A DNA stretch of 43,649 bases from Acidobacteriota bacterium. GTDB lineage: Bacteria > Acidobacteriota > Vicinamibacteria > Fen-336. A program made the position numbers and the translations under genes. Under the pieces are notes generated by a model that had not been told where the DNA came from, made no database searches, and saw only the letters and a list, made by a program, of their open reading frames with translations. The stretch lies in the NCBI GenBank assembly GCA_022340545.1, contig JAJDNV010000197.1:1-43649 (forward strand), given 5' to 3'. Below, piece after piece: positions 10,233-41,302 of this stretch. The first letter of the stretch is position 1; every line of letters begins with the position of its first letter.

Positions 10233-10242
10233 CAGCGACAGC

Positions 10243-11088
10243 TCAGGCCTTGACCTCGGTGCTGAAGATGGCCCGGAGGATCTTGCGGATCGCCGCCACC
10301 ACCCCGAGTACGAACACGATCACCAGCTTCCCGCCCTTGGCGAGGAGCTTGACCAGCGCCGCGAGGAGACCGGTCTTGGCCGCGGCGGCACCGGCCCCGC
10401 CCACGACCAGGGCGGCGAGCCCGTATTTCGCGATCTTGTCCCCCTCGCGGAACTCGGCGTACCTGTGGCCGGTCTTGTAGCCAAAGCCACCCAGGAGCAG
10501 GTCGAGGTGGGGCCGGGCGAGGGCGATCTGGGTCGCGTCGTCGACGAGGGTGGCCGACACGAAGCCCCGGCGGCCCAGGAGGCGGACATTGAAGTTGACG
10601 ACGTCGCCGCCCTCGTCGTCGCGGCCGAGGATGGCCCAGGTCAGGTTGTTGGTCGTCTCGTCGTACCGCGGCGGCGTCTGCCAGCCCACGACGTGGATCC
10701 CGGGGATCCCGCGCTCGGCGCGGACCTTGTTGGCCTCCTCCGTGCCCTCCCGGATGCTCTCGAGAATGGCGTCCGCGTCGATGTCGTCCTTGTCGTCGTC
10801 CCGGACGTAGCCGACCTCACGCTCCTCGAAGATCACAAACCAGGTGGCGTTCTCGTCCGCCCCGGTGACCATCCCCAGCTCGGAGCCGTCGGCCACGTTG
10901 CCCATCTCCTCCATGAGCGTCTTCGTGTCCTCCGCGTCCAGGAACACGTAGCCCGCCGGCAGCTGAAGCTCGGCGATCTGCCCCAGGTTGACGGTCTGTG
11001 GGCCGCTCTGCCAGTTCAACGCGGGCTGGGCCCACAGCCCCAGCGGAGTCAGAAGAAGGGCCAGGGCCCCGACGATCGGTCTCCTCAT
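10243..11088 (-). CDS. DUF2167 membrane-anchored protein
   Basis: A 281-residue protein with a strong GGAGGTG ribosome site before ATG 11088. A cleavable signal peptide ends near WAQPAL. The central domain carries the DUF2167 hallmarks: a GPQTVNLG-type opening, LPAGYVFLDAEDT, WFVIFEE, VGYVRDDD, and VVGWQTPPRYDETTNNLTWA (quote by parts VVGWQTPPRYD and NLTWA). Two hydrophobic segments near the C-terminus (about 220-240 and 253-272) flank a lysine-rich loop. Proteins of this family are membrane-anchored with the DUF on the periplasmic side and have no established function. It is the promoter-proximal gene of a two-gene unit with the zinc-ribbon membrane protein. Confidence 0.8.
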   Translation of the reverse strand: MRRPIVGALALLLTPLGLWAQPALNWQSGPQTVNLGQIAELQLPAGYVFLDAEDTKTLMEEMGNVADGSELGMVTGADENATWFVIFEEREVGYVRDDDKDDIDADAILESIREGTEEANKVRAERGIPGIHVVGWQTPPRYDETTNNLTWAILGRDDEGGDVVNFNVRLLGRRGFVSATLVDDATQIALARPHLDLLLGGFGYKTGHRYAEFREGDKIAKYGLAALVVGGAGAAAAKTGLLAALVKLLAKGGKLVIVFVLGVVAAIRKILRAIFSTEVKA

Positions 11089-11390
11089 CGCTCACCTCCG
11101 GGGCCCGAAGGGCCCGGCTGGTCCGGCCCGCCACCCCCCATTCGTGGAGGCGGGTCTGCCGGTGTCGGCCGTGATGAGCAAGGCCCGCACCAGAACGACA
11201 AGTGGCTCTGGCCGCGACACTTCCCTCGGTCGGCACCTCGAGGTGGCCACCCTCGCTGGCCGAAATCCAGACGGACGGCTGTCGGGAGAACGGCGTTCCC
11301 GCTCCTCACGCGCCCGAGGGAAGAGGCCGTATCCTTGCTGGATAGTCCCAGCGGGTGGCGGCCCCGGTCGCGCGCCCAGGGGAGGTGTCT
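11089..11390. promoter_or_regulatory. 302-base divergent intergenic region
   Basis: This region separates the DUF2167 gene (minus) from the large membrane protein (plus). On the minus side a GC-rich hairpin (CCGGGGCCC, GAA loop, GGGCCCGG) lies just upstream of the DUF2167 ribosome site. On the plus side a GATAGT box near 11340-11345 is a possible -10, and GGGGAGG at 11379-11385 is the ribosome site for the GTG at 11391. I see no gene in it. Confidence 0.35.
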
Positions 11391-14300
11391 GTGCGTCGAC
11401 GCGTCGCGCCGTTCGCCCTGCTCGTCCTCACCGCCGCTCTGGCCCTGGGCGGCACCGATCCCGCTCTCGCCCAGCCCATCTCGCGCCAGGACCTGCCGCC
11501 CGACCTGCGGCCCTGGGTGCCATGGGTTCTCGACGAGGTTCCGGGGCTCGGCTGCCCGAAGGTGCAGGGGACGCCCGTCTGCGTGTGGCCGGGACGTCTC
11601 GATCTCGACCTGACCCGGACCGGCGGGACCTTCACCCTCCGCGTGCGGGCCGACCGGGAGGCGGACCTGTTCCTCCCTGGAACCGCCCAGCTCTGGCCAC
11701 TCGACGTCCGGCTCGACGGCCGGGCGGCGCCGGTCTTCGGCAAGGGTGGGGTCCCGCGGCTCCGCATCCCCCCCGGGCGCCACCTCGTGTCCGGCCGCTT
11801 CGTCTGGTCACGGCTGCCCGAGTCGCTGCGGGTCCCGGGCACGATCGGCCTCGTGGAGCTGAGCCTCGACGGCCGTCCCGTGTCTCGTCCGAGGCGCGAG
11901 CAAGGAGGCCTGATCTGGCTGCGCGCGCGCGACGACGAGGCGGCGGGCGAGGGCGAGAGCCTGCGGCTCCAGGTCTTCCGGCACGTGGCGGACGGCATCC
12001 CTCTCTTCGTGGAGACGCGCCTCCAGCTCGAGGTGTCCGGTCGCGCCCGCGAGGTGACGTTTCCGGAGGCCCTTCTCCCGGACTCCGTTGCCGTCGCGGT
12101 GAGCGGAGATCTGCCCGCCCGCGTCGAGGACGGGACGCTCCGCGTCCAGGTGCGGGGCGGCCGGTACGTGGTGCGCGTGCGGGCGCGGATCGACGGACGT
12201 CCGGAGGCCGTGGCTCGTCCGCCGAAGGCCAACGACGCCGCAGGCGGAGCCGGCGTCGAGGCCTGGCCGGAGAGGGAGGTCTGGGTGTTCGCGGCGAACG
12301 AGGACCTGCGTCAGGTGGAGCTGTCCGGCCCGCCGGCCATCGACCCCTCGAGGACGGAGCTCCCCGACGGCTGGCGCACGCTTCCCGCGTTCCTGGTCGA
12401 GCCCGGGGCCGCGCTGACGATCGCGACGGTTCGGCGCGGCCTCCCCGAGGCGGCCCCCGACGCCGTGCAGCTGTCCCGCGAGATCTGGCTCGACCCCGAC
12501 GGGCGGGGGGCGAGCGTGCGCGACACGTTCGGAGGAACGCTCCATGCGACGTCGCGCCTCGACCTCCTGGCCCCCGGCACGCTCGGGCGCGTCGCCGTCG
12601 ACGGCCTGGACCAGCTCGTCACCGCGAATCCCGAGACCGAGACCGCCGGCGTCGAGCTGCGCCGGTCCGCCCTGCAGATGGAGGCCGACTCGCGGCTCGC
12701 CTTCGGGGGAGGGCTGCCCGCCGTGGGCTGGTCGACGGGCGTCGAGTCTCTCCACGCTCGTCTGCACCTCCCTCCCGGCTGGACGATCCTCGGCGCACGC
12801 GGCGTCGATCACCTGCCCGGGACCTGGACCTCGCGCTGGACGCTCCTGGGTTTCTTCTTCGTGCTGCTGGTGGCGTTCGCTGCCTACCGGCTCTTCGGGC
12901 CGCGGCACGCCGTGCTCGCGGTGGCGACGCTCGTCCTCACCCATGGCGAGCCCGGCGCGCCCTTCCTCGTCTGGCTGAGCCTCCTCGGCGCGATTGCCCT
13001 CCGGCGCGTCGCGTCTGAGGGACGTCTCGGAAGCCTGGGACGGATCTGGTTCCTGGTGAGCGCGGCGGTGCTCGTCCTCCTCCTCGTTCCCTTCGCCCGC
13101 GACCAGGTGCGCGCCGCGCTCTTCCCCCAGGTCGCGCCCGGCGGCGCGCAGTACGGCGTCGAGCGCAGCGCCCGTCAGTCCGGGATCGCGGGCGGCGCGG
13201 TCGGAGGTGTGGGCGGCGGGATGCAGGACGTAGACGAGATGTCGAACGTCCCGGCGAAGACGCCAGCGGCCCCGGCCGCCTCCGAAGTCCCACTCCAGCA
13301 GGTGCCTGAGGAAGAGATCGCCCGGGACAAGGAGGGCGCGATGCGGCAGCTCGCGGGCGAAGGCCGGCGGGCCTCCCTTGCTGAACAGGTCAGCGTCGTC
13401 GCCTACAACAAGGCCCTCGAGCAGGACCCGAAAGCCGTCCTGCAGACGGGACCCGGCGTCCCGACCTGGACGTGGAGCGGCCACACACTGAGCTGGACCG
13501 GACCGGTGGGTCAGGACCACGAGATGCGGCTCTACCTTGCCTCCCCCGGTCTCAACCGCGTGCTCACGGCCCTGCGGCTCGTTCTCCTGGGCCTTCTCGC
13601 CGTCGTCCTCGTCACCGGTCGGTGGCCGACCCTCCCCGGCCGGGGCAAACGGGGAGCGGCCCCCGTGGCCACGGGTCTCACCGCGCTCCTCCTCCTGGCC
13701 ACCTCGGGAGCCCGCGCCGCCGCGGCCCCGCAGACTCCCAGCCCGGAGATGCTCCAGCAGCTGAAGCAGAAGCTCACGCGTCCGGAGCCCTGCGAGCCGG
13801 ACTGCGTGACGACACCGAGCCTTCACCTGCGGCTCGGGGGGCGGACGCTGGAGGTGACGGCCGAGGTGCACGCGTCTGCCGATGGCACGTGGGCACTGCC
13901 CGGCCCGCTCGCGAGCTGGGGCGCCTCGGAGGTGCGCGTCGACGGCGTCCCGACGGTGGCGGTGGCTCATCTGCGGGACGGATTCCTCCACGTGCGCCTG
14001 CCGCGCGGCGTGCACCGGATCGTCGCCTCGGGCCCGGTGCCTCCCGGCGACAGCTTTACCCTGCAGTTCGCCAACCCGCCCCGCCGTGCCCGCGCCACCG
14101 CCCCGGGATGGGAGGTGAGCGGTCTCCGCGTCGACGGACCGCCGGAGGCGTCGATCCTGCTCTCACGCCGGCTGGCTGCGCGCACTGCTGGCGCCGCGGT
14201 CGAAGGTCGCTACGCCCCGTGGCTCGAGCTGACGCGGACCCTCGGCTTCGGGGTCACGTGGACGGTACACACGAGCGTGCGTCGGGTGACCCCGCGCGGG

Positions 14301-15629
14301 ACGCCAGTGGCGCTCCGGGTTCCGCTCCTGCCGGGCGAGGCCCCCACCCGCGCCGACTTCGTGGTCGAGGACGGCGAGGCGGCGGTGAGCCTCGGGCGCG
14401 ACGAGACGGAGACGTCCTGGGAGTCGACGCTCGAGCAGACCACGCAGATCGTCCTGGAAGCACCGGAGGGCCGGCCGTGGTCGGAGGTGTGGCGGCTGCA
14501 GTGCAGCACTATCTGGTCCTGCACTGGGGAAGGCCTGCCCCCGGTGAAGCGGATCGAGGGCGGTGTCTTCGCTCCGGAGTACCGGCCCTGGCCCGGGGAG
14601 TCGCTCGAGGTCACACTCGCCCACCCCGCCGGCGTCGAGGGCCAGACGCTGACGCTCGACTCGGTGCGCCTCGAGGCCACGCCGGGGACGCGACTGGAGC
14701 GCCTGCGACTGCAGATCCAGGCGCGCTCGAGCCGCGAGCAGCCGCTGCAGCTCACCCTGCCCGGCGACAGCGAGGTGCAGCAGGTCCGGCTCGACGGCGA
14801 CGAGCGCCCGCCGCGGTCGGAGGGCGGCGAGCTCCGGGTGACGGTGCCCGCGGGTGCCCACAACGTGGAGGTGCGCTGGCAGCAGCCCCGGGGCATTGCC
14901 CCGCTTTACGCGATCCCGCGCGTGGGCCTGCCCGGTCCCGCGGTGAACGTCACCCAGCAGCTCACGCTGCCCCGGAGCCGCTGGCTCCTGGTGACATGGG
15001 GCCCGGCCTGGGGCCCGGCGGTCCTCTTCTGGCCCTACTTCGTCTTTCTCCTCGCGGTGGCCCTCGGCCTCGGCCACATCCCGCAGAGCCCGCTCTCGAG
15101 CACGCAGTGGGTGCTGCTCGGCCTCGGGCTGAGCCAGATCCCGGCCCTGGGCGCGCTCGTGGTCGCCGGGTTCGTCTTCGCCCTCGCCATCCGCCGCGAT
15201 CGGCAGCCCGAGCACGCCTTCGTGTTCGACCTCACCCAGCTGCTGCTCGTGGTCTGGGCGGTGATCAGCCTCGGCCTCCTCTACGTGGCCATCCACACCG
15301 GCCTCCTCTTCCGGCCCGACATGCAGGTGGCGGGCAACGGAAGCACGGACACCGTGCTGCGGTGGTACGCGGACCGGGTGGTCGGCGAGACGCCGGGCGC
15401 GGGGGTCGTGAGCCTGCCCCTGTGGGCCTACCGGGTGGGGATGCTGGTCTGGGCTCTCTGGTTGGCGGCGAGCCTCGTGCGCGCCATCGGCTGGGGCTGG
15501 CGCTCGTTCGGAGAGGGCGGCTTCTGGCGCCGGCTCGGACTGCGGCGCACGCCGCGGACCGGCGAGACGCCGGTGGACGGCACGGCCGGGGTACCGGACC
15601 ACGAGCCCGACGACACGCCACGGGAGTGA
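11391..15629 (+). CDS. 1412-residue two-module membrane protein, unknown function
   Basis: I chose the GTG at 11391 because it has a GGGGAGG ribosome site 5 bases upstream and opens a clear signal peptide (basic start, then LLVLTAALALGG, ending near ALAQ). I do not recognise the family. Residues about 30-480 are a beta-rich periplasmic region, followed by three or four membrane helices (about 483-503, 522-540 and 552-575). A Gly/Ala-rich loop containing GGVGGGMQDVDEM follows, then two helices at about 723-744 and 755-775. A second beta-rich region spans about 780-1195, and four helices (about 1205-1395) and a charged tail finish the protein. The two beta regions share a pattern: W..xVRLDG or VRVDG, then RIPPGRH..xG or RLPRGVHRIVASG. 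This suggests an internal duplication. Confidence 0.7.
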   Translation: MRRRVAPFALLVLTAALALGGTDPALAQPISRQDLPPDLRPWVPWVLDEVPGLGCPKVQGTPVCVWPGRLDLDLTRTGGTFTLRVRADREADLFLPGTAQLWPLDVRLDGRAAPVFGKGGVPRLRIPPGRHLVSGRFVWSRLPESLRVPGTIGLVELSLDGRPVSRPRREQGGLIWLRARDDEAAGEGESLRLQVFRHVADGIPLFVETRLQLEVSGRAREVTFPEALLPDSVAVAVSGDLPARVEDGTLRVQVRGGRYVVRVRARIDGRPEAVARPPKANDAAGGAGVEAWPEREVWVFAANEDLRQVELSGPPAIDPSRTELPDGWRTLPAFLVEPGAALTIATVRRGLPEAAPDAVQLSREIWLDPDGRGASVRDTFGGTLHATSRLDLLAPGTLGRVAVDGLDQLVTANPETETAGVELRRSALQMEADSRLAFGGGLPAVGWSTGVESLHARLHLPPGWTILGARGVDHLPGTWTSRWTLLGFFFVLLVAFAAYRLFGPRHAVLAVATLVLTHGEPGAPFLVWLSLLGAIALRRVASEGRLGSLGRIWFLVSAAVLVLLLVPFARDQVRAALFPQVAPGGAQYGVERSARQSGIAGGAVGGVGGGMQDVDEMSNVPAKTPAAPAASEVPLQQVPEEEIARDKEGAMRQLAGEGRRASLAEQVSVVAYNKALEQDPKAVLQTGPGVPTWTWSGHTLSWTGPVGQDHEMRLYLASPGLNRVLTALRLVLLGLLAVVLVTGRWPTLPGRGKRGAAPVATGLTALLLLATSGARAAAAPQTPSPEMLQQLKQKLTRPEPCEPDCVTTPSLHLRLGGRTLEVTAEVHASADGTWALPGPLASWGASEVRVDGVPTVAVAHLRDGFLHVRLPRGVHRIVASGPVPPGDSFTLQFANPPRRARATAPGWEVSGLRVDGPPEASILLSRRLAARTAGAAVEGRYAPWLELTRTLGFGVTWTVHTSVRRVTPRGTPVALRVPLLPGEAPTRADFVVEDGEAAVSLGRDETETSWESTLEQTTQIVLEAPEGRPWSEVWRLQCSTIWSCTGEGLPPVKRIEGGVFAPEYRPWPGESLEVTLAHPAGVEGQTLTLDSVRLEATPGTRLERLRLQIQARSSREQPLQLTLPGDSEVQQVRLDGDERPPRSEGGELRVTVPAGAHNVEVRWQQPRGIAPLYAIPRVGLPGPAVNVTQQLTLPRSRWLLVTWGPAWGPAVLFWPYFVFLLAVALGLGHIPQSPLSSTQWVLLGLGLSQIPALGALVVAGFVFALAIRRDRQPEHAFVFDLTQLLLVVWAVISLGLLYVAIHTGLLFRPDMQVAGNGSTDTVLRWYADRVVGETPGAGVVSLPLWAYRVGMLVWALWLAASLVRAIGWGWRSFGEGGFWRRLGLRRTPRTGETPVDGTAGVPDHEPDDTPRE

Positions 15630-15643
15630 GCGCTCGCCGGAGG

Positions 15644-15672
15644 CCGCCTCACCCGCCGTCTTCGGAGCGGGC
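15644..15672. repeat. Left 29-bp direct repeat flanking the sugar-transport cassette
   Basis: This copy matches 21128-21156 at 28 of 29 positions (C at 15663, T at 21147). In the right copy the sequence is the last codons of the CBS gene plus 5 bases beyond. Read on the minus strand this left copy would encode ARSEDGG then TGA, against ARSKDGG then TGA in the intact gene. It begins 15 bases after the stop of the 1412-residue gene and has no gene body attached. It looks like an attachment-site duplicate or the remnant of a gene end. Confidence 0.9.
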
Positions 15673-15815
15673 CGAAAGAAGGTGCACCCGCTGGGGCTGG
15701 GCGTTGGCGCGCAGGAGCCCGAGAGGAGCGCGCGGCGATCCGGAGGCTAAAAGCGTCGCTGATGCAGGCGGGCATCCAGCACGCACCTCTGACGGCCGCC
15801 CTGAGTGAACCGACC

Positions 15816-15845
15816 TTGACGGTCTGACCTGGTCACTGTTGATAG
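15816..15845 (+). promoter_or_regulatory. Promoter with embedded palindromic operator for the sugar operon
   Basis: TTGACG (15816-15821) and TGATAG (15840-15845) are separated by 18 bases. Within the spacer lies TGACCTGGTCA (15825-15835), an 11-bp perfect dyad, placed as a repressor site would be. The gap 15630-15964 holds otherwise only the left repeat, then about 110 bases without recognisable content. The leader from this promoter to ATG 15965 is about 110 bases. Confidence 0.45.
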
Positions 15846-15964
15846 ACTCACACTGAGCTCAGGCTGCCCGGACAGGTGGTGTGGCGGGCCGGGGATTCTT
15901 GGCGCCGAGGAGACTTCATTCCCCGTTGTCCAGCGCTGTATCGCTGACGACCTCAGGACGAAGG

Positions 15965-17449
15965 ATGGGACAAGCTCCGCTGCTCTCAATTCGCGGAATC
16001 AAGAAGAGCTTCTCGGGCGTGCAAGCCCTCCTCGACGGAAGCCTGGATCTTCACCGCGGCGACATCCACGCGCTCTGCGGCGGCAATGGCGCCGGCAAAT
16101 CGACTCTCTTGAACATTCTGATGGGCTTCATCAAGCCCGATCAGGGAGAGATCTTCATCGACGGCAAGGAGGTGCGCTTCACGAATGCGAGGGAAGCGCT
16201 GCATGCGGGCATCGCGATCGTTCAACAGGAGCTCAGCGGCGTTCCTCACTTGACGGTGGCCGAAAACATTCTTCTCGGCGCCGAACCCTCCCGTTATGGC
16301 TTCGTCGACTTCCGTCAACTGAACGAGCAGGCCGAGAGGCTACTGCAATCCCTGGGTTTCGATCTCGACCCCACCGCAACCATGGATACCCTTGGCATCG
16401 CCTCTCAGCAATTGGTGGAGATCGCCAAGGCCCTCTCTCATCGCAATGCCGATATCCTGATCTTCGATGAGCCGAGCTCGGCCCTCGGCGAAGAGGACGC
16501 GGGCCGGCTGTTCGAGGCGATGCGCGACCTGGCATCGTCCGGCAAGAGCATCATCTTCGTCACCCACCGCATTGCGGAAATCTTCGCCATTGCCAGCACC
16601 TACACGGTGCTCAAAGACGGTGCGCGAGTGCAATCGGGAAAGATCAGTGACATCACTCCCGAGCGCCTGATCGAGGTAATGGTCGGCGGCGACGTAGAAG
16701 GAGAATTCATCAAGGACAACACGCCCGGGAGCGCCCCTCTGCTTGAGGTGCACGGCCTGACCCGCGCACCGCGTTTTGCGGATGTCTCCTTCACGCTCCA
16801 CGAGGGAGAGGTGCTTGGGATCTACGGGCTGGTTGGATCGGGGCGCACCGAGGTCCTGGACACCATATACGGTCTCTGCCGGGGTGACTCCGGTACTGTC
16901 TCCGTGCGTGAAAGGCCGCTCAAGGGAGGATCGCCCAGCGAAGCTCTCGACGCCGGTGTGGCCTACCTCACCGAAGACCGAAAGCGCAGCGGCCTCGTCC
17001 CTCGGGCGTCCGTGGGAGACAACCTGTCGCTCTCGGTGCTGTGGCGTATTCAGCGATGGGGTTTCATCCGTTTCCCGGAAGAGCGGTCGCGCGTCGACAA
17101 GGCGGTCGGCATGATGCGGATCAAGACCCCGACTACCAGCGAGCAGGTGCAGAACCTGAGTGGAGGCAACCAGCAGAAGGTGGTGCTTGGTCGTTGTGTT
17201 CTGACGGAGCCAAAGGTGCTTCTCCTCGATGAACCCACCCGTGGCGTTGATGTCGGGACGAAGAGAGAGCTCTACCGCTTCATCTCGAGCTTTGCGCGGG
17301 CCGGAGGTGCCGTAGTCATCGTTTCGTCTGAGATGGAAGAGGTCATGGGCGTGAGCGACCGGGTCCTTGTTCTTCGCAAAGGACGTCTTGCTTCTGTCTT
17401 GTCACGCGAGGAGGCGACTCGGAAGCAGATTATGATGGCCGCCGTCTGA
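15965..17449 (+). CDS. Sugar ABC transporter ATP-binding protein, RbsA/MglA type
   Basis: A 494-residue protein with two fused ABC domains, the length usual for CUT2 sugar importers. Domain 1 has Walker A GGNGAGKST (39-47), a degenerate signature ending SQQLVEIAKAL, Walker B ILIFDEPSSAL and a switch histidine in FVTHR. Domain 2 has the family's degenerate Walker A (GLVGSGRTE), a consensus signature NLSGGNQQKVVLG, Walker B VLLLDEPTRGVDVG and a serine (VSSEMEE) in place of the switch histidine. This asymmetry is normal for RbsA. It powers import through the permease encoded 10 bases downstream. I chose ATG 15965 over an upstream in-frame start because homologous sequence begins at LLSIRGIKKSF. 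Confidence 0.92.
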   Translation: MGQAPLLSIRGIKKSFSGVQALLDGSLDLHRGDIHALCGGNGAGKSTLLNILMGFIKPDQGEIFIDGKEVRFTNAREALHAGIAIVQQELSGVPHLTVAENILLGAEPSRYGFVDFRQLNEQAERLLQSLGFDLDPTATMDTLGIASQQLVEIAKALSHRNADILIFDEPSSALGEEDAGRLFEAMRDLASSGKSIIFVTHRIAEIFAIASTYTVLKDGARVQSGKISDITPERLIEVMVGGDVEGEFIKDNTPGSAPLLEVHGLTRAPRFADVSFTLHEGEVLGIYGLVGSGRTEVLDTIYGLCRGDSGTVSVRERPLKGGSPSEALDAGVAYLTEDRKRSGLVPRASVGDNLSLSVLWRIQRWGFIRFPEERSRVDKAVGMMRIKTPTTSEQVQNLSGGNQQKVVLGRCVLTEPKVLLLDEPTRGVDVGTKRELYRFISSFARAGGAVVIVSSEMEEVMGVSDRVLVLRKGRLASVLSREEATRKQIMMAAV

Positions 17450-17459
17450 GGGCGCGACC

Positions 17460-18458
17460 ATGAGGCCTGCACTCCGGCTCGCAAAGAACTACGGAACGGT
17501 CCTGGCTTTCGTTCTGCTCTGCGTCCTGGTGGGTCTCGCCTGTCAGTGCCGGGTCATGAAGGGGCAGTGGGAAGAGAACGTCTTCTTCACGCCTGAGAAC
17601 TTCATGCTGATCCTGTATCAGATCTCCATCAACGGCATTCTCGCGATCGGTATGACCTTCGTCGTGATCTCGGGCGGCATCGACCTGTCGGTCGGCTCGG
17701 TATTGGCCTTTGCCGGCATGCTTGCCGCGTCCTTTTCCACCAGCTCGACCACCGTGACGCCATGGAGTGGAACCTACACACTCGCGGTGCCGATCCTGTT
17801 TGCCCTGGCGGGAGGAGTCGTTTGCGGCGCGTTCAATGGTTGGGTTGTCTCCCGGTTCCGGATTCAGCCTTTCATCGCAACGCTCGGAATGCTCCTCGCC
17901 GCACGGGGAGCAACGATGGCCCTCACCGGAGGCAATCCGATCTCATCGCTCGACGCTCGCCTGCGGTGGCTCGGAACTGGCAGAATCTGGAACGTCCCCG
18001 TCCCCATCGTCATCTTCGTGATCGTGTTCGCCGTCGCCTGGGTCATTCTCAACAGAACCGTTCTCGGGCGCTATGTCTACGCAGTCGGTGGAAATGAGAG
18101 GAGTGCCCGAACCTCCGGCATCAAGACCGGACAGATCAAGATCTGGGTCTATGTCATCTCCGGCCTTCTTGCCGGTGTGGCGGGGATCATCCTGACCGCC
18201 AAGACGGGATCCGGCCAGACAAACGCCGGGAGCTCGTACGAGCTCGACGCCATTGCCGCCGCCGTCATCGGGGGGACCAGCTTGTCCGGCGGCGTCGGCA
18301 GGTTGTCGGGGACACTGTTCGGGGCGTTGATCATGGGTGTGATGAACAACGGCTTGGACATCCTGGGGGTTGAAAGCTACTACCAGTTGATCATCAAGGG
18401 CGCGCTCATCCTCACGGCCGTGATCATCGATCCCTCGCGCAAGGCGGCGGATTCCTGA
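17460..18458 (+). CDS. Sugar ABC transporter permease, RbsC type
   Basis: A 332-residue inner-membrane protein of the BPD_transp_2 family with about 8-10 hydrophobic helices. Recognisable segments are the ISGGIDLSVGSV loop, GGVVCGAFNGWVVSRFRIQPFIATLG (quote by parts CGAFNGWVV and QPFIATLG), the YAVGGNERSAR coupling region and the C-terminal AAAVIGGTSLSGGVGRLSGT segment. All are typical of RbsC/XylH permeases. Only one permease gene is present, so it would act as a homodimer with the RbsA-like ATPase. The spacing of 10 bases from the ATPase stop and 34 bases to the binding protein supports one transcript. Confidence 0.92.
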   Translation: MRPALRLAKNYGTVLAFVLLCVLVGLACQCRVMKGQWEENVFFTPENFMLILYQISINGILAIGMTFVVISGGIDLSVGSVLAFAGMLAASFSTSSTTVTPWSGTYTLAVPILFALAGGVVCGAFNGWVVSRFRIQPFIATLGMLLAARGATMALTGGNPISSLDARLRWLGTGRIWNVPVPIVIFVIVFAVAWVILNRTVLGRYVYAVGGNERSARTSGIKTGQIKIWVYVISGLLAGVAGIILTAKTGSGQTNAGSSYELDAIAAAVIGGTSLSGGVGRLSGTLFGALIMGVMNNGLDILGVESYYQLIIKGALILTAVIIDPSRKAADS

Positions 18459-18492
18459 GAATGAAGCCTTCAGTCGACGACACGGAGAGTCC

Positions 18493-19503
18493 ATGAAGAA
18501 GCGACTCCTGTTGCTCGCTGCGAGCGGGACTGTATTGACTTCATGCCTGCTGTTCGAAGCGGCGCCCGCTCCGACGAAGGTGAAGATCGCCGTGCTCATG
18601 TACGGCCACAAGGCGGAGTTCGTCCAGATGATGGTGCGTCATGGCAAGCAGCATCCTGCCGTGACCAGCGGCCTGGCCGCGTTGACCTTCTATGACGGCC
18701 GCTACGACCCGGCCGTGCAGAACGACCAGGCACAGCTGGCCATCAACCTGAAATACGATGCCATCATCGTGAACCCGATGGACTTCGAGGCCAACATCGA
18801 TGTGGTGACAAAAGCCAATGCGGCACACATCCCCGTGATTGTCACCAACGCCCGCCTGGATACCCAGGAGATGACTTCCGCAGTGGATTCAGATGACGTT
18901 CTCGGCGGCTACATGGAGGCCAGGAGCGTCCTGCAGGAGCTCGGCTGCAAGGGCAACGTGGTGATCATCGAGGGTCCCAAAGGGGGTTCCGGCGAGATCC
19001 AACGGGGACAAGGCAACGAAAAGGCCATCTCCGAATGCCCTCCGGGAGCTGTGAGAATCCTGGAACGAAAGACCGCCAACTGGTCACGTTCGGAAGCGAT
19101 GGACCTGATGCAGAACTGGCTGCAGAAGCATAGAGGCCGAATCAACGGTGTCATCGCCCAGAACGACGAGATGGCATTGGGCAGCATTGAGGCGATCAAG
19201 GCGGCCGGGCTGAATGTTCACGACTATGCAATCGCCGGTATCGACGGTGTGTCCGATGCCCTCAACGCGGTCAAACGCGGCGAGATGACCTCCATTCTGC
19301 AGGACGCCAAAGGCCAGATGCAGGCCAGCATCGACATCGCAATCCGTGCAGTCCTTGGGCCAGGCTATCTGCCGATGTCTGCGATCTGGAAACAATACGA
19401 AGAGGACATGGAGTGGAACAGCGGTCAGTCGAAGCACTACCTCGTTCCCTGGACGATCGTGACACCCACGAACGTCGACGGATTGCTGGAGAGCCGCAAG
19501 TAG
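18493..19503 (+). CDS. Sugar-binding lipoprotein, RbsB-like periplasmic binding fold
   Basis: A 336-residue protein with a GGAGAG ribosome site before ATG 18493. The signal ends in an LTSC lipobox, so it is anchored to the membrane rather than free. The mature part is a type I periplasmic binding protein (Peripla_BP_4): VKIAVLMYGHKAEFVQMM, the NLKYDAIIVNPMDF segment, AAHIPVIVTNARLD, a GNVVIIEGPKGGSGEIQRG hinge region, INGVIAQNDEMALG and DYAIAGIDGVSDALNAV. These segments define the RbsB family. The ligand is probably a monosaccharide or polyol but is not readable from sequence. It follows the permease, so the operon order is ATPase, permease, binding protein. Confidence 0.9.
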   Translation: MKKRLLLLAASGTVLTSCLLFEAAPAPTKVKIAVLMYGHKAEFVQMMVRHGKQHPAVTSGLAALTFYDGRYDPAVQNDQAQLAINLKYDAIIVNPMDFEANIDVVTKANAAHIPVIVTNARLDTQEMTSAVDSDDVLGGYMEARSVLQELGCKGNVVIIEGPKGGSGEIQRGQGNEKAISECPPGAVRILERKTANWSRSEAMDLMQNWLQKHRGRINGVIAQNDEMALGSIEAIKAAGLNVHDYAIAGIDGVSDALNAVKRGEMTSILQDAKGQMQASIDIAIRAVLGPGYLPMSAIWKQYEEDMEWNSGQSKHYLVPWTIVTPTNVDGLLESRK

Positions 19504-19562
19504 AGCAGGCAGACTGACCCCTTCTCGAAACGACCCGGGATGTCGTGGACGGCCAAGCCAAG

Positions 19563-21098
19563 ATGAAGAATCTCGTCGTCGGGCTTGACAGCAGCACCAC
19601 TGCCACCAAAGCCATTGCCTGGAGACGCGACGGCACGATCGCCGGGCATGGCCGCAGCCCCATCCCTCTACTCAGCCCGGGTCACAACCGCTACGAGCAG
19701 GACCCCGAAGACTGGTGGCGTTCCGCCTGCGGCGCTCTACAGGGACTGTTCCAGAAAGTTGCGCCCAGCGATGTGGCCGCCATCGCGATCGCCAATCAAC
19801 GCGAGACCTTCGTGCCTCTCGGGCAGGACGGCCATCCGGTGCGGCCAGCAATCGTGTGGCTTGACCAGCGCTGTGAAGAGGAGGTGGCCTGGCTCGCCGG
19901 CCGCGTCGGCAGCGAGAGGATTCACCAGATCACCGGCAAGCCCCCTGACATGGGGCCCGTGGCCTACCGCATCGCCTGGATGCTGCGGCACGAGAAGGGG
20001 CTGTTCGAGCGCACTGTCATGTTTGCCGACGTCCATGCCTATCTGGCGCGGCGTCTCACCGGCACCTTTCAGACGAGCTGGGCGAGCGCAGATCCCTTGG
20101 GCATGTTCGATCTGGAGGAGGAGGCCTGGTCGCCGGAGATACTGAGCGCACTCGATCTCTCGCGGGAACGGCTGCCGCAAGCCGCGTGCCCTGGAACTGT
20201 CATTGGCACCGTGGGTGAGTCGGCTGCCGCCACGACTGGCCTCCACCCCGGCACTCTGGTCGTGGCTGGCGGAGGAGACGGACAAGCCGCGGGCCTCGCT
20301 GTCAACTCTCTCTCTCGGGAACGCGCCTACCTCAATCTAGGAACTGCGGTCGTATCGGGTGTCTACTCGAACGAGTACCGCATCGGAAGAGCGTGGAGGA
20401 CGATGGGAAGCTGTACCGGACGAGGTTTCTACCTCGAAACCAGCCTGCGGGCCGGAACGTTTCTCACCGACTGGTTTGCACACCACGTGTGCCAGGCCGC
20501 AGAGGGTGACCGGAGCATCTTCGAGCAGCTCGAAGCCGAAGCGGCGGCGGTCCCAATCGGTAGTGGCGGACTCCTCACCCTGCCCTACTGGGGCGCCGTC
20601 ATGACGCCGTATTGGGATCCTCGAGCCCGCGGATGCTTCGTGGGGCTCAGTGGATCTCACCGCAGAGGCCAGCTGTATCGGTCGCTCCTGGAGGGTATCG
20701 CCCTGGAGCAGGCTCTCGTCACCGGCATGATAGAAGACGCAACCGGCATGCGGGCGAAGGAATTCGTCGCCATTGGCGGCGGGGCCGCGAGCGATCTGTG
20801 GTGTCAGATCATGGCCGATGCGACTGCCACGACCGTGCGCCGGTCTCGGACCGTAGAAGCTTCGAGTCTCGGGGCGGCCATTTGTGCGGCCGCCGGTGCG
20901 GGCTGGTACAGCAATGCGGTGGAAGCGGCCGAAGCGATGAGCGACAACACCCTCCGTGACACGCAGCCCTCAAGCGAAGCTTGCGCACGATACGCCGAGC
21001 TGTTCGGAATCTACCGCGAGCTCTATCCCACTCTCCGCGAGACCTTCTCGAAGCTGTCGCAGTTCAGGCCGGAGAAGAGCCGCGAGACACGAGGATAG
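19563..21098 (+). CDS. FGGY-family carbohydrate kinase
   Basis: A 511-residue cytoplasmic kinase. The N-terminal phosphate-1 loop VGLDSSTTATKAIAW and the WLDQRCEEEVAWL segment mark the FGGY fold. The C-terminal domain has the LNLGTA, LTLPYWGAVMTPYWDPRARG, LLEGIALEQALV and FVAIGGGAASDLWCQIMAD segments, the last being the family signature around the adenosine site. The closest general resemblance is to xylulokinases, but the substrate cannot be fixed. I prefer ATG 19563 to an in-frame GTG at 19545; neither has a strong ribosome site. The gene lies 59 bases after the binding protein, implying phosphorylation of the imported sugar. No isomerase, dehydrogenase or regulator accompanies it. Confidence 0.88.
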   Translation: MKNLVVGLDSSTTATKAIAWRRDGTIAGHGRSPIPLLSPGHNRYEQDPEDWWRSACGALQGLFQKVAPSDVAAIAIANQRETFVPLGQDGHPVRPAIVWLDQRCEEEVAWLAGRVGSERIHQITGKPPDMGPVAYRIAWMLRHEKGLFERTVMFADVHAYLARRLTGTFQTSWASADPLGMFDLEEEAWSPEILSALDLSRERLPQAACPGTVIGTVGESAAATTGLHPGTLVVAGGGDGQAAGLAVNSLSRERAYLNLGTAVVSGVYSNEYRIGRAWRTMGSCTGRGFYLETSLRAGTFLTDWFAHHVCQAAEGDRSIFEQLEAEAAAVPIGSGGLLTLPYWGAVMTPYWDPRARGCFVGLSGSHRRGQLYRSLLEGIALEQALVTGMIEDATGMRAKEFVAIGGGAASDLWCQIMADATATTVRRSRTVEASSLGAAICAAAGAGWYSNAVEAAEAMSDNTLRDTQPSSEACARYAELFGIYRELYPTLRETFSKLSQFRPEKSRETRG

Positions 21099-21110
21099 CT
21101 TCCGCGCAAT

Positions 21111-21129
21111 GGGCGGCGGAGCGCCGCCC
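21111..21129 (+). terminator. GC-rich hairpin after the kinase gene
   Basis: GGGCGGCG, loop GAG, CGCCGCCC forms a perfect 8-bp stem 12 bases after the kinase stop. There is no T-run, so intrinsic termination is doubtful. It may terminate with Rho, protect the 3' end or serve the convergent CBS gene. Its last two bases overlap the right 29-bp repeat. Confidence 0.45.
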
Positions 21130-21156
21130 GCCTCACCCGCCGTCTTTGGAGCGGGC
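21128..21156. repeat. Right 29-bp direct repeat, at the 3' end of the CBS gene
   Basis: Identical to 15644-15672 except for one base. It covers the last codons and stop of the CBS gene (minus strand) plus 5 bases beyond. Inside it CCCGC and GCGGG form short inverted arms about a 10-base centre, loosely like the core of a tyrosine-recombinase site. Confidence 0.9.
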
Positions 21157-21663
21157 TTCCAGGTCCGGGAGCGGCGGGAGGTTGATGACGTGGCTGGGCA
21201 GGAGAGACACGATGTAGTCGACGACCTCGCGCTGCGAGAGGATGCCCACGAGCGCCCCTTTCTCGTCCACGATGGGCACGTTCCGGAAGCCGCCCACCGC
21301 CATCCGATTCAGGGCGAAGGCAACCCCGTCGTCGAGCCGTAGCGTCTCGGGGTCCGGCGTCATGACCTCCTCAATGGCGCGGTCGAGGTCGATCCCGGCC
21401 GCGACCACGCGCCGCATGAGGTCGCGCTCGGTGAAGATGCCCACCGCCTGGCCGTCCCTCTCCACGAGGACCGCGCCGAGCTTCTGCTCGAGCATCAGGT
21501 GGACCGCAGCGCGGATGGTACCCATCTCCCGCAGCGTGGCCGCCGGCTTCGGCGCCAGGTCCTCGATGGTCGCTTCGAGGATCGCCTGGCCGAGGCTCTC
21601 CTCTTCCCGCTCGTACTGGCCGGGCTCGTCTTCGTAGGCCTCGTCGAACTCGCTCGTGCCCAT
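21133..21663 (-). CDS. Tandem CBS-domain protein
   Basis: A 176-residue cytoplasmic protein read from ATG 21663, which has an AGGTG ribosome site; an in-frame upstream extension is non-conserved leader. An acidic N-terminus (residues 1-30) precedes two CBS motifs. CBS1 covers about 35-95 (TIRAAVHLMLEQKLGAVLV, VGIFTERDLMRRVV), and CBS2 about 98-155 (VMTPDPETLRLDDGVAFAL, FRNVPIVDEKGALVGILSQRE). Paired CBS motifs bind adenosine nucleotides and regulate a partner; stand-alone proteins like this are often sensors of energy state. The final residues ARSKDGG lie in the 29-bp repeat shared with 15644-15672, so this 3' end is the likely insertion target of the adjacent cassette. Confidence 0.9.
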   Translation of the reverse strand: MGTSEFDEAYEDEPGQYEREEESLGQAILEATIEDLAPKPAATLREMGTIRAAVHLMLEQKLGAVLVERDGQAVGIFTERDLMRRVVAAGIDLDRAIEEVMTPDPETLRLDDGVAFALNRMAVGGFRNVPIVDEKGALVGILSQREVVDYIVSLLPSHVINLPPLPDLEARSKDGG

Positions 21664-21801
21664 GGGACACCTCAGCGCCGAGAAAAAACCCTTTGTTCTG
21701 TTCAGGACGATTGCCCGTATCTTACGCTCAGCCCCAACGACAACACAAGGGGGGCGGGCCAACGAGCTGACAGAGTTTGACTTGAGGGGGGCTCCGCTCG
21801 C

Positions 21802-21831
21802 TTGACGCCGGCGGCCCCGACCCACTACACT
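21802..21831 (+). promoter_or_regulatory. Strong sigma70-like promoter upstream of the cold-shock gene
   Basis: TTGACG (21802-21807) and TACACT (21826-21831) are separated by 18 bases. Transcription would start near 21838-21840. It is among the best -35/-10 matches in the window and fits an abundant cold-shock transcript. Confidence 0.6.
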
Positions 21832-21838
21832 GGTTACC

Positions 21839-21902
21839 AGCTAGTCGGCGTTGCTTTGGCGTTAGCACAGAGGGTCGCCCGCAGTGGGCGGCCTTTTTGT
21901 TT
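21839..21902 (+). ncRNA. Short terminated leader: attenuator or small RNA upstream of csp
   Basis: From the predicted start near 21839 about 60 bases are transcribed before a hairpin that looks like an intrinsic terminator. No open reading frame of note lies in it. If it terminates, most transcripts would be a 60-nt RNA and the downstream cold-shock gene would need read-through, as expected for a temperature-controlled attenuator. This is an inference from layout only. Confidence 0.4.
21873..21898 (+). terminator. Intrinsic terminator-like hairpin in the csp leader
   Basis: GGTCGCCC, loop GCAGT, GGGCGGCC (one G-T pair) is followed at once by TTTTTG. An 8-bp GC-rich stem plus five Ts is the standard intrinsic terminator form. 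It lies between the strong promoter and the cold-shock start codon, 59 bases upstream of the latter. Confidence 0.65.
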
Positions 21903-21956
21903 GTGGACGTGCAGGGTACGTGGCGACGGGCACGGGCCAAGGAGGCCTGCACGTAC

Positions 21957-22160
21957 ATGATCGAAGGTAGTGTGAAGTGGTTCAACGAGTCCAAGGGTTT
22001 CGGTTTTCTTTCCCAGGAGGGTGGGCCGGACGTTTTCGTGCATCACTCGGAGATCCGGGCCGATGGGTACCGCAGCCTGAACGAGGGTGAGAAGGTGAGC
22101 TTCGAGGTCGTCGACAGCCCCAAGGGGCCGCGCGCGGCCAACGTCACCCGCATCTCCTAG
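21957..22160 (+). CDS. Cold-shock protein, CspA family
   Basis: A 67-residue protein, the standard length of a single cold-shock domain. ATG 21957 has a strong AAGGAGG ribosome site 11 bases upstream. RNP1 is GFGFLSQ (KGFGFLS) and RNP2 is DVFVHHSEI, both intact, and the protein begins with the diagnostic GSVKWFNESKGFGF stretch. The end GPRAANVTRI is also canonical. These proteins bind single-stranded RNA and DNA and melt RNA structure at low temperature. The gene has a strong promoter, a hairpin-containing leader of about 118 bases and its own terminator, so it is a single-gene unit. Confidence 0.95.
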   Translation: MIEGSVKWFNESKGFGFLSQEGGPDVFVHHSEIRADGYRSLNEGEKVSFEVVDSPKGPRAANVTRIS

Positions 22161-22184
22161 CGGACTCCGTCGAATTCACACCGA

Positions 22185-22215
22185 CGCCCGGGGCCACCAA
22201 GGCTCCGGGCGTTTT
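22185..22215 (+). terminator. Intrinsic terminator of the cold-shock gene
   Basis: CGCCCGGGGCC, loop ACCAA, GGCTCCGGGCG (one mismatch) followed by TTTT and then CCCTTT. It lies 25 bases after the csp stop codon. Confidence 0.75.
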
Positions 22216-22253
22216 CCCTTTCCGGAGGTCTGGTCGCTCGGTGGTGCGCCCCG

Positions 22254-23105
22254 TCAGTGGTGCCGGTCGTGAATCCAGGTCAGGACGTCGCTCATCACGA
22301 CCTCGCGGTCCGGCTCATTGAAGATCTCGTGAAAGAGGCCGGGATAGATCTTGAGCTGCTTGTCGTTCACCTGAAGTCGTGAAAACAGCTCTTCGCTGCC
22401 ACGCGGGTCCACCACCGAGTCGGCGCCGCCGTGCAGGACCAGCGTGGGTGTCTCGACCTTGCCGGCATCCGAGAATCCGGCCTGCCCCGCCTCCATCGCG
22501 GCCAGGCCCAGCCCGGTTGTCAGATGCCGGGGGATCCGCGGGTCGGTCTCGTAGCGACGGACCACGTCCGGGTCACGCGAAAGCTGGCGCGCCTTGATGA
22601 GCCCGGGCACCGGCGTGGTGGACGAGAGCTTGTTGACCTGCCGGAGCAGCCAGACCACCGGCCCCGGCGGAGCGATGGCCGCCTTCAAGGCGGCGCCGGA
22701 GAGGATCAGGCCCCGCAGCGGGGTCCCCCGGGTCTCGGCATAGCGAAGGGCGATCAGCCCGCCGAGGGAGTGGCCGACAAGGAAGACTCGCTCCGAGTGG
22801 GACTGCACGTGCTGCAGCAAGACGTCCAGGTCCTCGAGGTAGGACTCGAAGGACGGAATCCAGACGCGCCGTCCCTCGCTCTGGCCGTGTCCGCGCAGGT
22901 CCATCACCGAGACGCCGAGGCCGCGATCGGCAAAGAACTTCCCAACGTCATGGTAGCGATCGGAGTGCTCGGCCACGCCGTGAACGAGCACGATCTGGGC
23001 CGGAGCGTCCGGAACGAGCCTCTCGAGGTAGTGGAGCCGGAGACCGTCGGACGAGGTGAGCGAGCCTTCCTCGACCGAGGTTCCTGCGACGGGCATCGAG
23101 GGCAT
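22254..23105 (-). CDS. Alpha/beta hydrolase, monoacylglycerol lipase-like (Hydrolase_4)
   Basis: A 283-residue protein from ATG 23105, which has a GGAGGGGG ribosome site. The oxyanion-hole motif is LVHGVAEHSDRY, a hallmark of the monoacylglycerol lipase/lysophospholipase group. The nucleophile elbow is GHSLGG (S113), the acid is D229 in HGGADSVVDP and the base is H259 in PGLFHEIFNE, so the catalytic triad is complete. A cap region lies at about 140-215. No signal peptide is seen, so it is probably cytoplasmic and acts on monoacylglycerols or similar esters. It is preceded by the SnoaL-like lipoprotein gene on the same strand with a 28-base gap, suggesting one transcript. Confidence 0.88.
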   Translation of the reverse strand: MPSMPVAGTSVEEGSLTSSDGLRLHYLERLVPDAPAQIVLVHGVAEHSDRYHDVGKFFADRGLGVSVMDLRGHGQSEGRRVWIPSFESYLEDLDVLLQHVQSHSERVFLVGHSLGGLIALRYAETRGTPLRGLILSGAALKAAIAPPGPVVWLLRQVNKLSSTTPVPGLIKARQLSRDPDVVRRYETDPRIPRHLTTGLGLAAMEAGQAGFSDAGKVETPTLVLHGGADSVVDPRGSEELFSRLQVNDKQLKIYPGLFHEIFNEPDREVVMSDVLTWIHDRHH

Positions 23106-23133
23106 CCACCCCCTCCGGCGGGGCTCGGAGGGG

Positions 23134-23640
23134 CTACTCGGTTGCCGAGCCCTCAGGCGGATCCGACACCGGCGCGTCCACCGCGACCTTCCACTCGCCG
23201 ACCGCGTTCTTCCTCCAGACGTCCACGTATTGACCGTTCTGGCTCACCGCGTTCCCGTCCGGGCCGCTCATCGTCAGGCTGTAGGAGCCGATGTCGTAGG
23301 CGAGATCTCCGGATCGGGCGACCACGACCTCGTCGGGCGCAAACGAAAGGCTGAAGTTCGGGTCGCTCATCATGCCGCTGACCCCCTCCTTGAGAGCCGC
23401 CATCCCGCGGGCGTCGGGTGCGTTCTCCAGCAGGAGGATGCCCTCGTCGGCGTAGAAGGAGGCGAACTTCGCGGCGTCCTTCGCCTCGGCCGCCGCCGCC
23501 CATTGCTTGAGGGCCGCCCGGAGCGCGGCCTCGTCGGCGGCGCGGTTGTCGGGCGGCGCCGCGGGCGCCGGGGCCTCGGCCACGCACCCCGCGAGGGCCA
23601 GTGCGCCGATGAGGGCAACGTGTCGACTGAGCCTTGTCAT
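23134..23640 (-). CDS. SnoaL/DUF4440-like lipoprotein
   Basis: A 168-residue protein with a GGGGAGG ribosome site. The signal ends in an ALAGC lipobox, followed by an Ala/Pro-rich linker. The mature part is a cone-shaped NTF2-like domain of the DUF4440/SnoaL type: ALKQWAAAAEAKDAAKFASFYADEG (quote by parts ALKQWAAA and FASFYADEG), then a SGDLAYDIGSYSLTM strand and DVWRKNAVGEWKVAVDAP at the end. Such domains bind or convert small ligands, or simply serve as dimer modules; no catalytic set can be assigned. It lies directly upstream of the alpha/beta hydrolase. Confidence 0.82.
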   Translation of the reverse strand: MTRLSRHVALIGALALAGCVAEAPAPAAPPDNRAADEAALRAALKQWAAAAEAKDAAKFASFYADEGILLLENAPDARGMAALKEGVSGMMSDPNFSLSFAPDEVVVARSGDLAYDIGSYSLTMSGPDGNAVSQNGQYVDVWRKNAVGEWKVAVDAPVSDPPEGSATE

Positions 23641-23969
23641 GAGTATTCCTCCCCGAGTGCTGCGCCGGCCATTCGGCTGGCCTGGGGCGGATTCTATCCC
23701 GGGACGGCGGCGACGCGGTGAGCGTCACCCTGGCTTTCGAGCCATGAGGACCGCGGCGCCGCGTCCGAAACGGTAGGCGCCGTAGCCCCGTCGCAGCACG
23801 GCACAGAGACCGGACATCGACGGAGATTGTAGCTGCCGGTCCCGTAGCGAAGGAGACGAGAGGTTCCGTCAGCGGTGCGAGCGCATGTCGTCGATGCCCG
23901 CCGCGAGCGTGTCTCGCCAGGCGGCCTCGACAGACTCCTGGGACATGGGGATGGCCCAGGGATATCCGG
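23641..23969. other. 329-base region between M56 gene end and lipoprotein start
   Basis: No confident gene. Two very short minus-strand frames are present. One is the 30-residue frame listed separately at 23725-23817. The other is a 25-residue frame at 23869-23946 without a ribosome site. I see no T-rich terminator after the M56 gene. Confidence 0.4.
23725..23817 (-). CDS. Possible leaderless 30-residue microprotein
   Basis: An ATG-to-TGA frame of 31 codons on the minus strand. The predicted peptide is basic and glycine-rich with an RRGYGAYRFGRG core, a short AAVLMA hydrophobic stretch and a KPG end. A TACAAT box (complement of 23826-23831) ends 8 bases before the ATG, and there is no ribosome site, the same geometry as other putatively leaderless genes here. 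It could equally be a chance frame. Confidence 0.25.
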   Translation of the reverse strand: MSGLCAVLRRGYGAYRFGRGAAVLMARKPG

Positions 23970-25952
23970 CTAGGGCATCTCGGTGTCCGGCCCCGCCTCC
24001 AAGGTGTGCTCGAGGTGAGACTCCTCGGCCTCTTCCAGCCGGTGCGTCTTCTCGTGCTCCGCCTTGTGGACCTCGCGCGCGGCGTCGTGGGCCGCTTCCC
24101 GGGCCGCGTGCATGTCTTCGCGGGCTGCCTCGCGGGCGGCGCGCATGACCTCGTGGATCTCGGGAAGCGAGTCGTGCATGGCCTCTTGCAGGTGATGCTG
24201 GGACTCTCTCATGGCCTCCCGCGCGTGGGCGAGGGCCTCGTGCAGCTCGGACATGTCCGGGTGAGCGTCCCGGGCGACCTCCCGGGCAAGCCGCCGGATC
24301 TCTGCCCGTTCTTCCGCCGTGGGCCTCGCCGCCCGGGCGATCGTCCGGGCCTTCTCCCGGATCTGACGCATCTGCTCCTCGGGGATCTGTGCCGCGCGGA
24401 CCGCCTCTCTCAGCTCCCTCTGGGCGGCCCTCATCTGCCGGCGGGCCTCCTCGACGTCCTTTCGAGAGGCGTCGTCCTGGGCGGTGCCCTCGTGCTGCGC
24501 GCGTTGCGCGTCGGCCAGGGCGCGGGCCGCGACCTCGACGTCACGCCCCAGACGCTCGAGCGCCTCGTGGTCGGGGAGGCTCGCTTCCACGAGCGCGTCG
24601 ATCTCGTCCTCGACCTTGGCCAGGGCCGCCTGCTGCCCTTCGGCTCGTTCGGCGATTCTCTGCGTCAGCTCCTCGAGTCGCCGCTCGGCATCCGACTCCG
24701 GAGCCGCAGGCGCTTCGGGTGCCTCCGGCGCCTCGGGGGCGTCCGGTGCGGGAGGGGCCTCCGGCGCCGGAGGGGCCGGGGGGGCCTCCGGCGCTTCGGG
24801 GGCGGTCGGGGCCGGGGCCGGCTCGACGGCCTCCAGCGACTCCGGCACACGCGCCGGCTCGCCGCCGGGGTGGCCCGAGACGACGGGCGTGACGAGCGCC
24901 GTTGCCAGGACGGCGGCGGCGGCCAGGGGGAGCACGAAGCGGCGCGGGCGTTCGAGTGAGCGCAAGGGATCCATGAGTCTCTCCACACGGTGCCCGAGCC
25001 GGCTGCGGGTGCTCAGTGCTCCCGAGACGGCAGCGGGCAAAGAAACGGGTTCGGCCACCGTCCAGGAGGCCACGTCGACGAGCGAGCGGGCGAGGCCGAG
25101 AGGACGACCGGAGGCGGCGACCGCCAGGTCGTCGCTCAGGCACTCGGCCAGGTCCTGGAGGCGACGGCGCGCCCAGGTGTTGAGCGGTTGGACCGGCGCC
25201 ACCGCCTCGACGAGACGAGCGGCGAGGATCCAGGCGGGGTCGCGCCGGGCCACGTGCGCCAGCTCGTGAGCGCACAGGGCGACCTGCTGCTCGCCTTCCA
25301 GCTGCTCGAGGGCCCGGGTCGGGAGGCACACCTCGGGGTGCAGCACCCCGGTGGCCAGGGGCACGTCGAGCCGGGGCACCGTGCTCACGGGCACCGGGCG
25401 CCGGAGGCCGAGCCCCGCCGCGAGGGCCGTCGCCCGCGAGGCGAGGTCATCGTTCGCCAGGGGATGGCGCGAGCGGAGCACGCGGCGAAGCCGCACCGCG
25501 GCGACGCCCAGGCGAGCCAGGGCGAGGAGCGCCACCGCCGCCCAGACTCCGGTCAACACTGGTCTCCAGACGCTCGGCGCGGGGAACGACCACCCGCCGG
25601 GCGTGCGAGCGGCTCCATCCTGGTTGCGAACCGTCTCCAGCACCGTCGGAAGGGACCCGAAGACGACCTCGACATCCCCGGACGCGCGTGCCGCATCCGT
25701 GGGACCGACGCCCGGCTCGCCGCGCACGACCGGCGGCTCCTCCGGAAGTGTGAAGACGCCGCCCAGCGGCTGTACGCCGAGACCGAGCTGGAGGCTGGCG
25801 GTGAGAAGGCCGCCGACCAGGGCGGCGCGGAGCACCGCCTCCTGAAGCCCCAGCCGCCGCTCGCCGAGCAGACGGCACAGCACCGCCGCGCCGCCGAGCA
25901 GGAGCGTGCTGTGCAACAGGTACGTCAGGGCCCAGGAGGTCAGGAGGGTCAT
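23970..25952 (-). CDS. M56-family metallopeptidase, BlaR1-like sensor with coiled-coil tail
   Basis: A 660-residue membrane protein. The N-terminus has two helices (about 8-28 and 36-58) and one at 130-152. The cytoplasmic peptidase domain carries HELAHVARRD (zinc ligands H229 and H233, catalytic E230) and a downstream AECLSDDLAVAAS segment typical of M56. A further helix lies near 341-362. In BlaR1 an extracellular penicillin-binding domain follows. Here instead a Pro/Ala/Glu linker (about 375-420) leads to a long charged coiled coil (about 425-650) with many histidines. The sensing input therefore differs from beta-lactams. It overlaps the BlaI-type repressor gene by 4 bases, implying signal-induced cleavage of that repressor. 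Confidence 0.85.
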   Translation of the reverse strand: MTLLTSWALTYLLHSTLLLGGAAVLCRLLGERRLGLQEAVLRAALVGGLLTASLQLGLGVQPLGGVFTLPEEPPVVRGEPGVGPTDAARASGDVEVVFGSLPTVLETVRNQDGAARTPGGWSFPAPSVWRPVLTGVWAAVALLALARLGVAAVRLRRVLRSRHPLANDDLASRATALAAGLGLRRPVPVSTVPRLDVPLATGVLHPEVCLPTRALEQLEGEQQVALCAHELAHVARRDPAWILAARLVEAVAPVQPLNTWARRRLQDLAECLSDDLAVAASGRPLGLARSLVDVASWTVAEPVSLPAAVSGALSTRSRLGHRVERLMDPLRSLERPRRFVLPLAAAAVLATALVTPVVSGHPGGEPARVPESLEAVEPAPAPTAPEAPEAPPAPPAPEAPPAPDAPEAPEAPEAPAAPESDAERRLEELTQRIAERAEGQQAALAKVEDEIDALVEASLPDHEALERLGRDVEVAARALADAQRAQHEGTAQDDASRKDVEEARRQMRAAQRELREAVRAAQIPEEQMRQIREKARTIARAARPTAEERAEIRRLAREVARDAHPDMSELHEALAHAREAMRESQHHLQEAMHDSLPEIHEVMRAAREAAREDMHAAREAAHDAAREVHKAEHEKTHRLEEAEESHLEHTLEAGPDTEMP

Positions 25953-26335: not shown

Positions 26336-26355
26336 CCGGCCCTCCGTATAACTAC

Positions 26356-26386: not shown

Positions 26387-26464
26387 GATGTCTTTGTCTC
26401 CACCCTCCCTGTAGACGTCAGGCGGCCGCTTTTTGTTGCTGCGGGGGCCGGGGGGCGAGGAGGC

Positions 26465-41169: not shown

Positions 41170-41174
41170 TGTCC

Positions 41175-41296: not shown

Positions 41297-41302
41297 TAGA
41301 GG

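Follow-up and report, generated by a model that had tools for sequence, protein, structure and literature searches.

A sugar-uptake operon of foreign origin between 29-bp direct repeats at the 3' end of a CBS-domain gene in an Acidobacteriota genome

By what route did a set of sugar-uptake genes come to lie between two copies of the last codons of a CBS-domain gene, and does this arrangement point to an integrase? A sequence-only reading of the window (the whole 43,649-nt stretch of DNA that was analyzed) had described the interval as the expected product of site-specific integration that restores a gene 3' end. The genome examined is a 5.04-Mb draft in 406 contigs, and one same-genus sister genome (G001) was included for comparison. 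The features of the locus are listed in Table 1.

Table 1. Features of the repeat-bounded interval and its flanks (window positions)
Feature	Position	Strand	Remarks
Left flanking gene, 1424 aa as called, no Pfam family	11355..15629	+	73.5% identical orthologue in sister, next to CBS orthologue
Left 29-bp repeat	15644..15672	+	Stray copy of CBS gene 3' end
Decayed PF00756 esterase gene fragment (about residues 333-368 of 397)	15676..15784	+	Frameshifted, truncated at both ends, abuts left repeat
Sugar ABC transporter ATP-binding protein (CUT2/RbsA-like), 494 aa	15965..17449	+	
Sugar ABC transporter permease (BPD_transp_2), 332 aa	17460..18458	+	
Periplasmic sugar-binding protein (Peripla_BP_4), 336 aa	18493..19503	+	
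FGGY carbohydrate kinase (xylulokinase-like), 511 aa	19563..21098	+	
Palindrome GGGCGGCGgagCGCCGCCC	21111..21129		Perfect 8-bp stem, overlaps start of right repeat
Right 29-bp repeat	21128..21156	+	Authentic CBS gene 3' end (gene on - strand) plus 5 bp
Intact CBS-domain gene, 176 aa	21133..21663	-	Orthologues in G001, G003, G004, and G006

The repeat pair and the genes between its copies

The two repeat copies are identical at 28 of 29 positions, as the sequence-only reading had reported, and are spaced 5,484 bp apart. They form the longest direct repeat with no more than 1 mismatch in window positions 10000 to 27000; the longest repeats in 61 first-order Markov shuffles reached 16 to 22 bp, and analytically only 1.6e-6 such pairs are expected, which together rule out a chance repeat. 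The motif (79% GC) occurs at these two places alone in the draft genome when up to 3 mismatches are allowed, which rules out a common genomic motif. At the same threshold no site was found in 20 relatives, and no copy of the 29-bp core was found in viral contigs.

The right copy comprises the last seven codons and the stop of the CBS gene, plus 5 bp past the stop. The C-terminal motif of this gene (EARSKDGG) has the form common to four orthologues and is identical in one of them, in agreement with the earlier view that this copy ends an intact gene. The left copy has no CBS gene body adjoining and is the stray fragment that the same reading had taken it to be. Its single difference would encode Glu where the CBS gene itself has Lys; Lys is also found in the sister and in G006, which makes the right copy the ancestral one. 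The palindrome at the right repeat (GGGCGGCGgagCGCCGCCC) is not stronger than those in shuffled sequences, and hairpins by the CBS stop were rejected as a marker of the native junction on the same ground.

All four genes of the operon are intact. Matches to PF00005, PF02653, PF13407, and PF00370/PF02782 well over their cut-offs identify a CUT2-type sugar ABC transporter with an FGGY kinase, for which the best model is xylulokinase (score 298.8, under the cut-off of 380). The four intact genes agree with the description of the interval as a single complete operon; the degraded esterase fragment at 15676 to 15784, which also lies inside, does not. Homologous transporters elsewhere adjoin an alcohol dehydrogenase, and several also adjoin a xylulokinase or a D-lyxose isomerase, which suggests a pentitol or pentose as the substrate. 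The operon likely imports a pentose or pentitol of the xylitol, arabitol, or lyxose type, and the kinase likely phosphorylates the derived ketose, a substrate assignment that we infer from these neighboring enzymes. A literature search on the transporter substrate found nothing specific. The alcohol dehydrogenase is absent from the block, and the proteins most like the Consotaella enzyme that this genome encodes at other loci share 34 to 37% identity with it. The operon was probably retained because it is functional.

Composition and relatives of the operon

The operon genes have a GC content of 0.59 to 0.65 and a GC3 of 0.74 to 0.80, compared with a GC3 of 0.86 to 0.94 in most neighbors, and their codon-adaptation index against the native genes of the window is 0.48 to 0.52, compared with 0.66 to 0.79 for the native genes themselves. 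Both GC and codon usage thus mark the operon as foreign relative to the native genes. The GC of the interval had been described as lower than in both flanks; this holds against most neighbors, but the drop on the left falls at about position 15747 and not at the repeat. A second GC dip (0.63 to 0.65) is present at window positions 41000 to 43000.

Among 395 other genomes of the phylum, no close relative of the binding protein was found at E ≤ 1e-40, and its best match among 60 relatives has 38% identity. The closest relatives found are Proteobacterial (67 to 72% identity). The ATPase, permease, and binding protein are 62, 74, and 71% identical to those of Tropicimonas and 63, 69, and 69% identical to those of Consotaella. 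The window operon shares the ATPase-permease-binding protein order with the Proteobacterial pentose/pentitol operons (Tropicimonas, Consotaella, and the Klebsiella aerogenes plasmid NZ_CP099261.1), and ATPase and permease identities are lower for the Enterobacterales operons than for Tropicimonas and Consotaella. In contrast to the window, the Proteobacterial operons carry an alcohol dehydrogenase upstream and, in several cases, their own xylulokinase, whereas the window operon lacks the dehydrogenase and has a downstream kinase that is only 25 to 28% identical to the kinases linked to the Proteobacterial transporters. This kinase of a different lineage makes the operon a composite. The nearest kinases are encoded by G305, a member of the same phylum (53%), and by Skermanella plasmids (51 to 53%). 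The G305 kinase gene likewise lies near a PF00756 esterase gene, together with a zinc alcohol dehydrogenase gene, but ABC transporter genes resembling the window set are missing from its 12-kb contig. When the whole cassette was compared with plasmids at the DNA level, the matches listed were only 66 to 68% identical and fell in the transporter genes.

An ancestral operon that was lost in the sister was considered and rejected, given the absence from the phylum sample, the Proteobacterial relatives, and the foreign codon usage. Judged by its composition and relatives, the operon is of outside origin.

The site in the sister genome and the left edge of the block

Orthologues of the 1424-residue gene (73.5%) and the CBS gene (85%) lie adjacent on one contig of the sister, the only same-genus genome compared, with an intergene of about 590 bp from which the operon is absent. 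Adjacent flanks without the operon are what a search for an empty site in relatives was expected to reveal, but no clean site carrying just one 29-bp repeat was found, and the sister's intergene has its own rearrangements. Collectively, the flanks adjacent without the operon in the sister, the absence from the phylum sample, the Proteobacterial kinship, and the foreign composition make an insertion after the species split well supported. An assembly chimera was judged unlikely, as both sides are syntenic with the sister.

The sister's intergene holds a direct duplication of the 3' end of the large gene (232 bp, 76% identity; G001 contig 222, L002:780-1412). A palindromic element of about 95 bp, with the ends GGTCAGATCTC...GAGATCTGACC, is present in the same intergene (contig 222, 4140 to 4234) and on four other G001 contigs, giving at least 5 copies in the sister; an exact pattern search found none in this genome. 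The independent 232-bp duplication around the dispersed palindrome shows that duplications arise at this intergene without any cassette, which is in keeping with the illegitimate insertion favored below, as is the GC break inside the left repeat. This observation would also suit a history of two unrelated events, in which the CBS 3' end was duplicated locally and the operon block was then inserted between or beside the copies, and a GC break away from the repeat would suit it as well. We consider this history improbable: it requires two events, and the esterase fragment begins just where the left copy ends.

The DNA of this fragment (15676 to 15784, recovered with the spacer as the query) matches contig 82 of this genome (80%, E 3e-20), C13 of G001 (79%), and C169 of G005 (75%). 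The matching loci are the C-terminal part of an intact PF00756 esterase of about 397 residues. A GH3-family protein is encoded near the esterase in this genome, and in the sister an arabinofuranosidase-domain protein is. The remnant in the window covers about 36 residues, split over two frames and missing both ends, and its differences from the intact gene by codon position (9/6/7) show no third-position bias, as in a pseudogene. Homology to the esterase begins 3 bp past the left repeat; an extension into the repeat was rejected as not significant, since about 10% of shuffles were as good. The left GC shift lies at 15747 (range, 15719 to 15824), about 75 bp inside the left repeat, and a break at this point beats one at the repeat end by 3.4 log units. 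The fragment abutting the left repeat and the GC shift downstream of that repeat place the start of the inserted block inside a broken gene of a lineage-native type. The repeats are 28/29 identical while the neighboring fragment is 79% identical to its match, which suggests that the fragment, of uncertain source, was probably already divergent on arrival.

Mobility machinery and the mode of insertion

No integrase, transposase, or remnant of either was found between the repeats, and no integrase-like fragment was found in the 292-bp spacer; the earlier statement that the interval contains no recombinase was therefore correct. Phage_integrase matches in the genome are limited to XerD, a XerC-type recombinase, and an integron integrase, and one resolvase-type protein is also encoded. 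The integron integrase is located on contig 201 (L087:2940-4211; TIGR02249, 449 bits, cut-off 265); a search of this 5.6-kb contig for a RYYYAAC/GTTRRRY motif pair found none. A phage source of the block was tested with negative results.

With XerC, XerD, and an integron integrase encoded in the genome, and with a repeat length near the 28 bp of dif sites, the block could be a minimal passenger element that is moved in trans by one of these enzymes on 29-bp sites. This is very improbable, because the 79% GC repeat does not resemble dif (the ground on which dif and pdif [IMEX] sites were rejected), no dif-like site lies within 3 mismatches of the consensus used in the draft genome (the host's own dif may differ from it), and the repeat pair is the sole one in the genome. 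An integron attC site was likewise rejected, as neither junction has a RYYYAAC/GTTRRRY motif pair, and the repeat's best dyad reaches 5 of 6. Also very improbable, and slightly more so, is a minimal metabolic cassette that has no recombinase of its own and travels between genomes in trans through an unrecognized host recombinase acting on the CBS-gene 3' end.

Direct repeats around an insert also have the look of a target duplication, as would be left by a transposon or a pair of insertion sequences that has since been lost. Target duplications made by transposition are usually much shorter than 29 bp. The junctions have neither terminal inverted repeats nor other repeats, and no transposase is present among the reading frames between the 29-bp copies, findings that count against a DDE transposon; a transpositional origin is accordingly quite improbable.

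The main rival is a decayed integrative element, in which a tyrosine-integrase island would have entered the CBS 3' end at a 29-bp att core, restored the gene, and then lost its integrase and most of its cargo, leaving a CIME-like remnant. Tyrosine integrases leave direct repeats of 8 to 60 bp and use the 3' ends of housekeeping genes (PMC5704250), and the locus agrees with this in its repeat length (29 bp, 28/29 identical), its location at a 3' end with stop, the restoration of an intact CBS gene with a conserved C terminus, and a foreign operon that is absent from the sister's site. As in a CIME, foreign DNA lies between direct repeats, one of which restores the 3' end of a housekeeping-type gene, and no integrase is left. 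In a comparison made from the DNA alone, the two differ in that a broken gene of lineage type, directly against the repeat, forms the left end here, with neither element-specific sequence nor an integrase remnant at the ends, and in that no related ICE or IME and no further copy of the att core was found in the genome, the 20 relatives, or the viral contigs. A later deletion ending almost exactly at the att core would be needed to place the broken gene 3 bp inside the left repeat. Further, no recognizable integrative element or integrase was seen beside the CBS orthologues of G001, G003, G004, and G006 (open reading frames read by eye), and in the last three the gene surroundings are different. 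The broken, frameshifted esterase at the left repeat, the lack of an integrase remnant, and the lack of an integrative element at the site in relatives speak against the proposal of site-specific integration, and we regard a decayed element as possible but unlikely.

We favor an illegitimate insertion over this rival and give it an even chance. A sugar-utilization chunk of about 5.45 kb would have been inserted between the two convergent genes with a 29-bp target duplication. The insertion itself, the foreign transporter that it carries, the broken esterase gene at its left edge, and the duplication are shown by the analysis; a repair-type mechanism, and the joining of the transporter to lineage-type esterase DNA ahead of the move, are what they suggest. 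The source chunk would have begun with what was left of a xylan-type esterase gene, its broken 3' part, and continued with the ABC transporter operon and the FGGY kinase. Non-site-specific recombination would have placed it between the convergent genes after the split from the sister, and the 29-bp duplication at the 3' end of the CBS gene may reflect fill-in of a staggered break or template switching, so that neither flanking gene was harmed. Without the insert, only 19 bp would separate the two stop codons. Between genes this close, DNA that enters without damage to either one necessarily lands at a 3' end, and a tolerated insertion with a 29-bp duplication has to take one in, so that the position argues less strongly for an integrase than might appear. 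Against an illegitimate insertion, a 29-bp duplication is long for fill-in of a break, the exact location at a 3' end with stop is a classic mark of tyrosine integrases, and an older island that later underwent deletion or decay could have left the esterase fragment. A literature search on insertion by end joining found nothing specific.

The locus is thus best described as a horizontal acquisition of the ordinary kind, in which nothing points to a special mobility mechanism, and as a well-documented case of a metabolic operon that crossed phyla and settled between two convergent genes. An integrase need not be invoked for direct repeats at the 3' end of a gene, and where the spacer between convergent genes is short, any tolerated target-duplicating insertion will look like 3'-end integration. 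A wider mechanistic importance would follow only if mobility were shown.

The far side of the CBS gene appears to be variable as well: an S33 hydrolase gene and an adjoining small gene (window positions 22254 to 23640) have no match in the sister contig between the CBS and M56 genes. Window positions 21828 to 22215 have a weak match to the Rfam cspA thermoregulator (27.7 bits, below the gathering score of 78) and contain a small cold-shock-protein-like gene at about 21957 to 22160 on the forward strand; this stretch is conserved in the sister.
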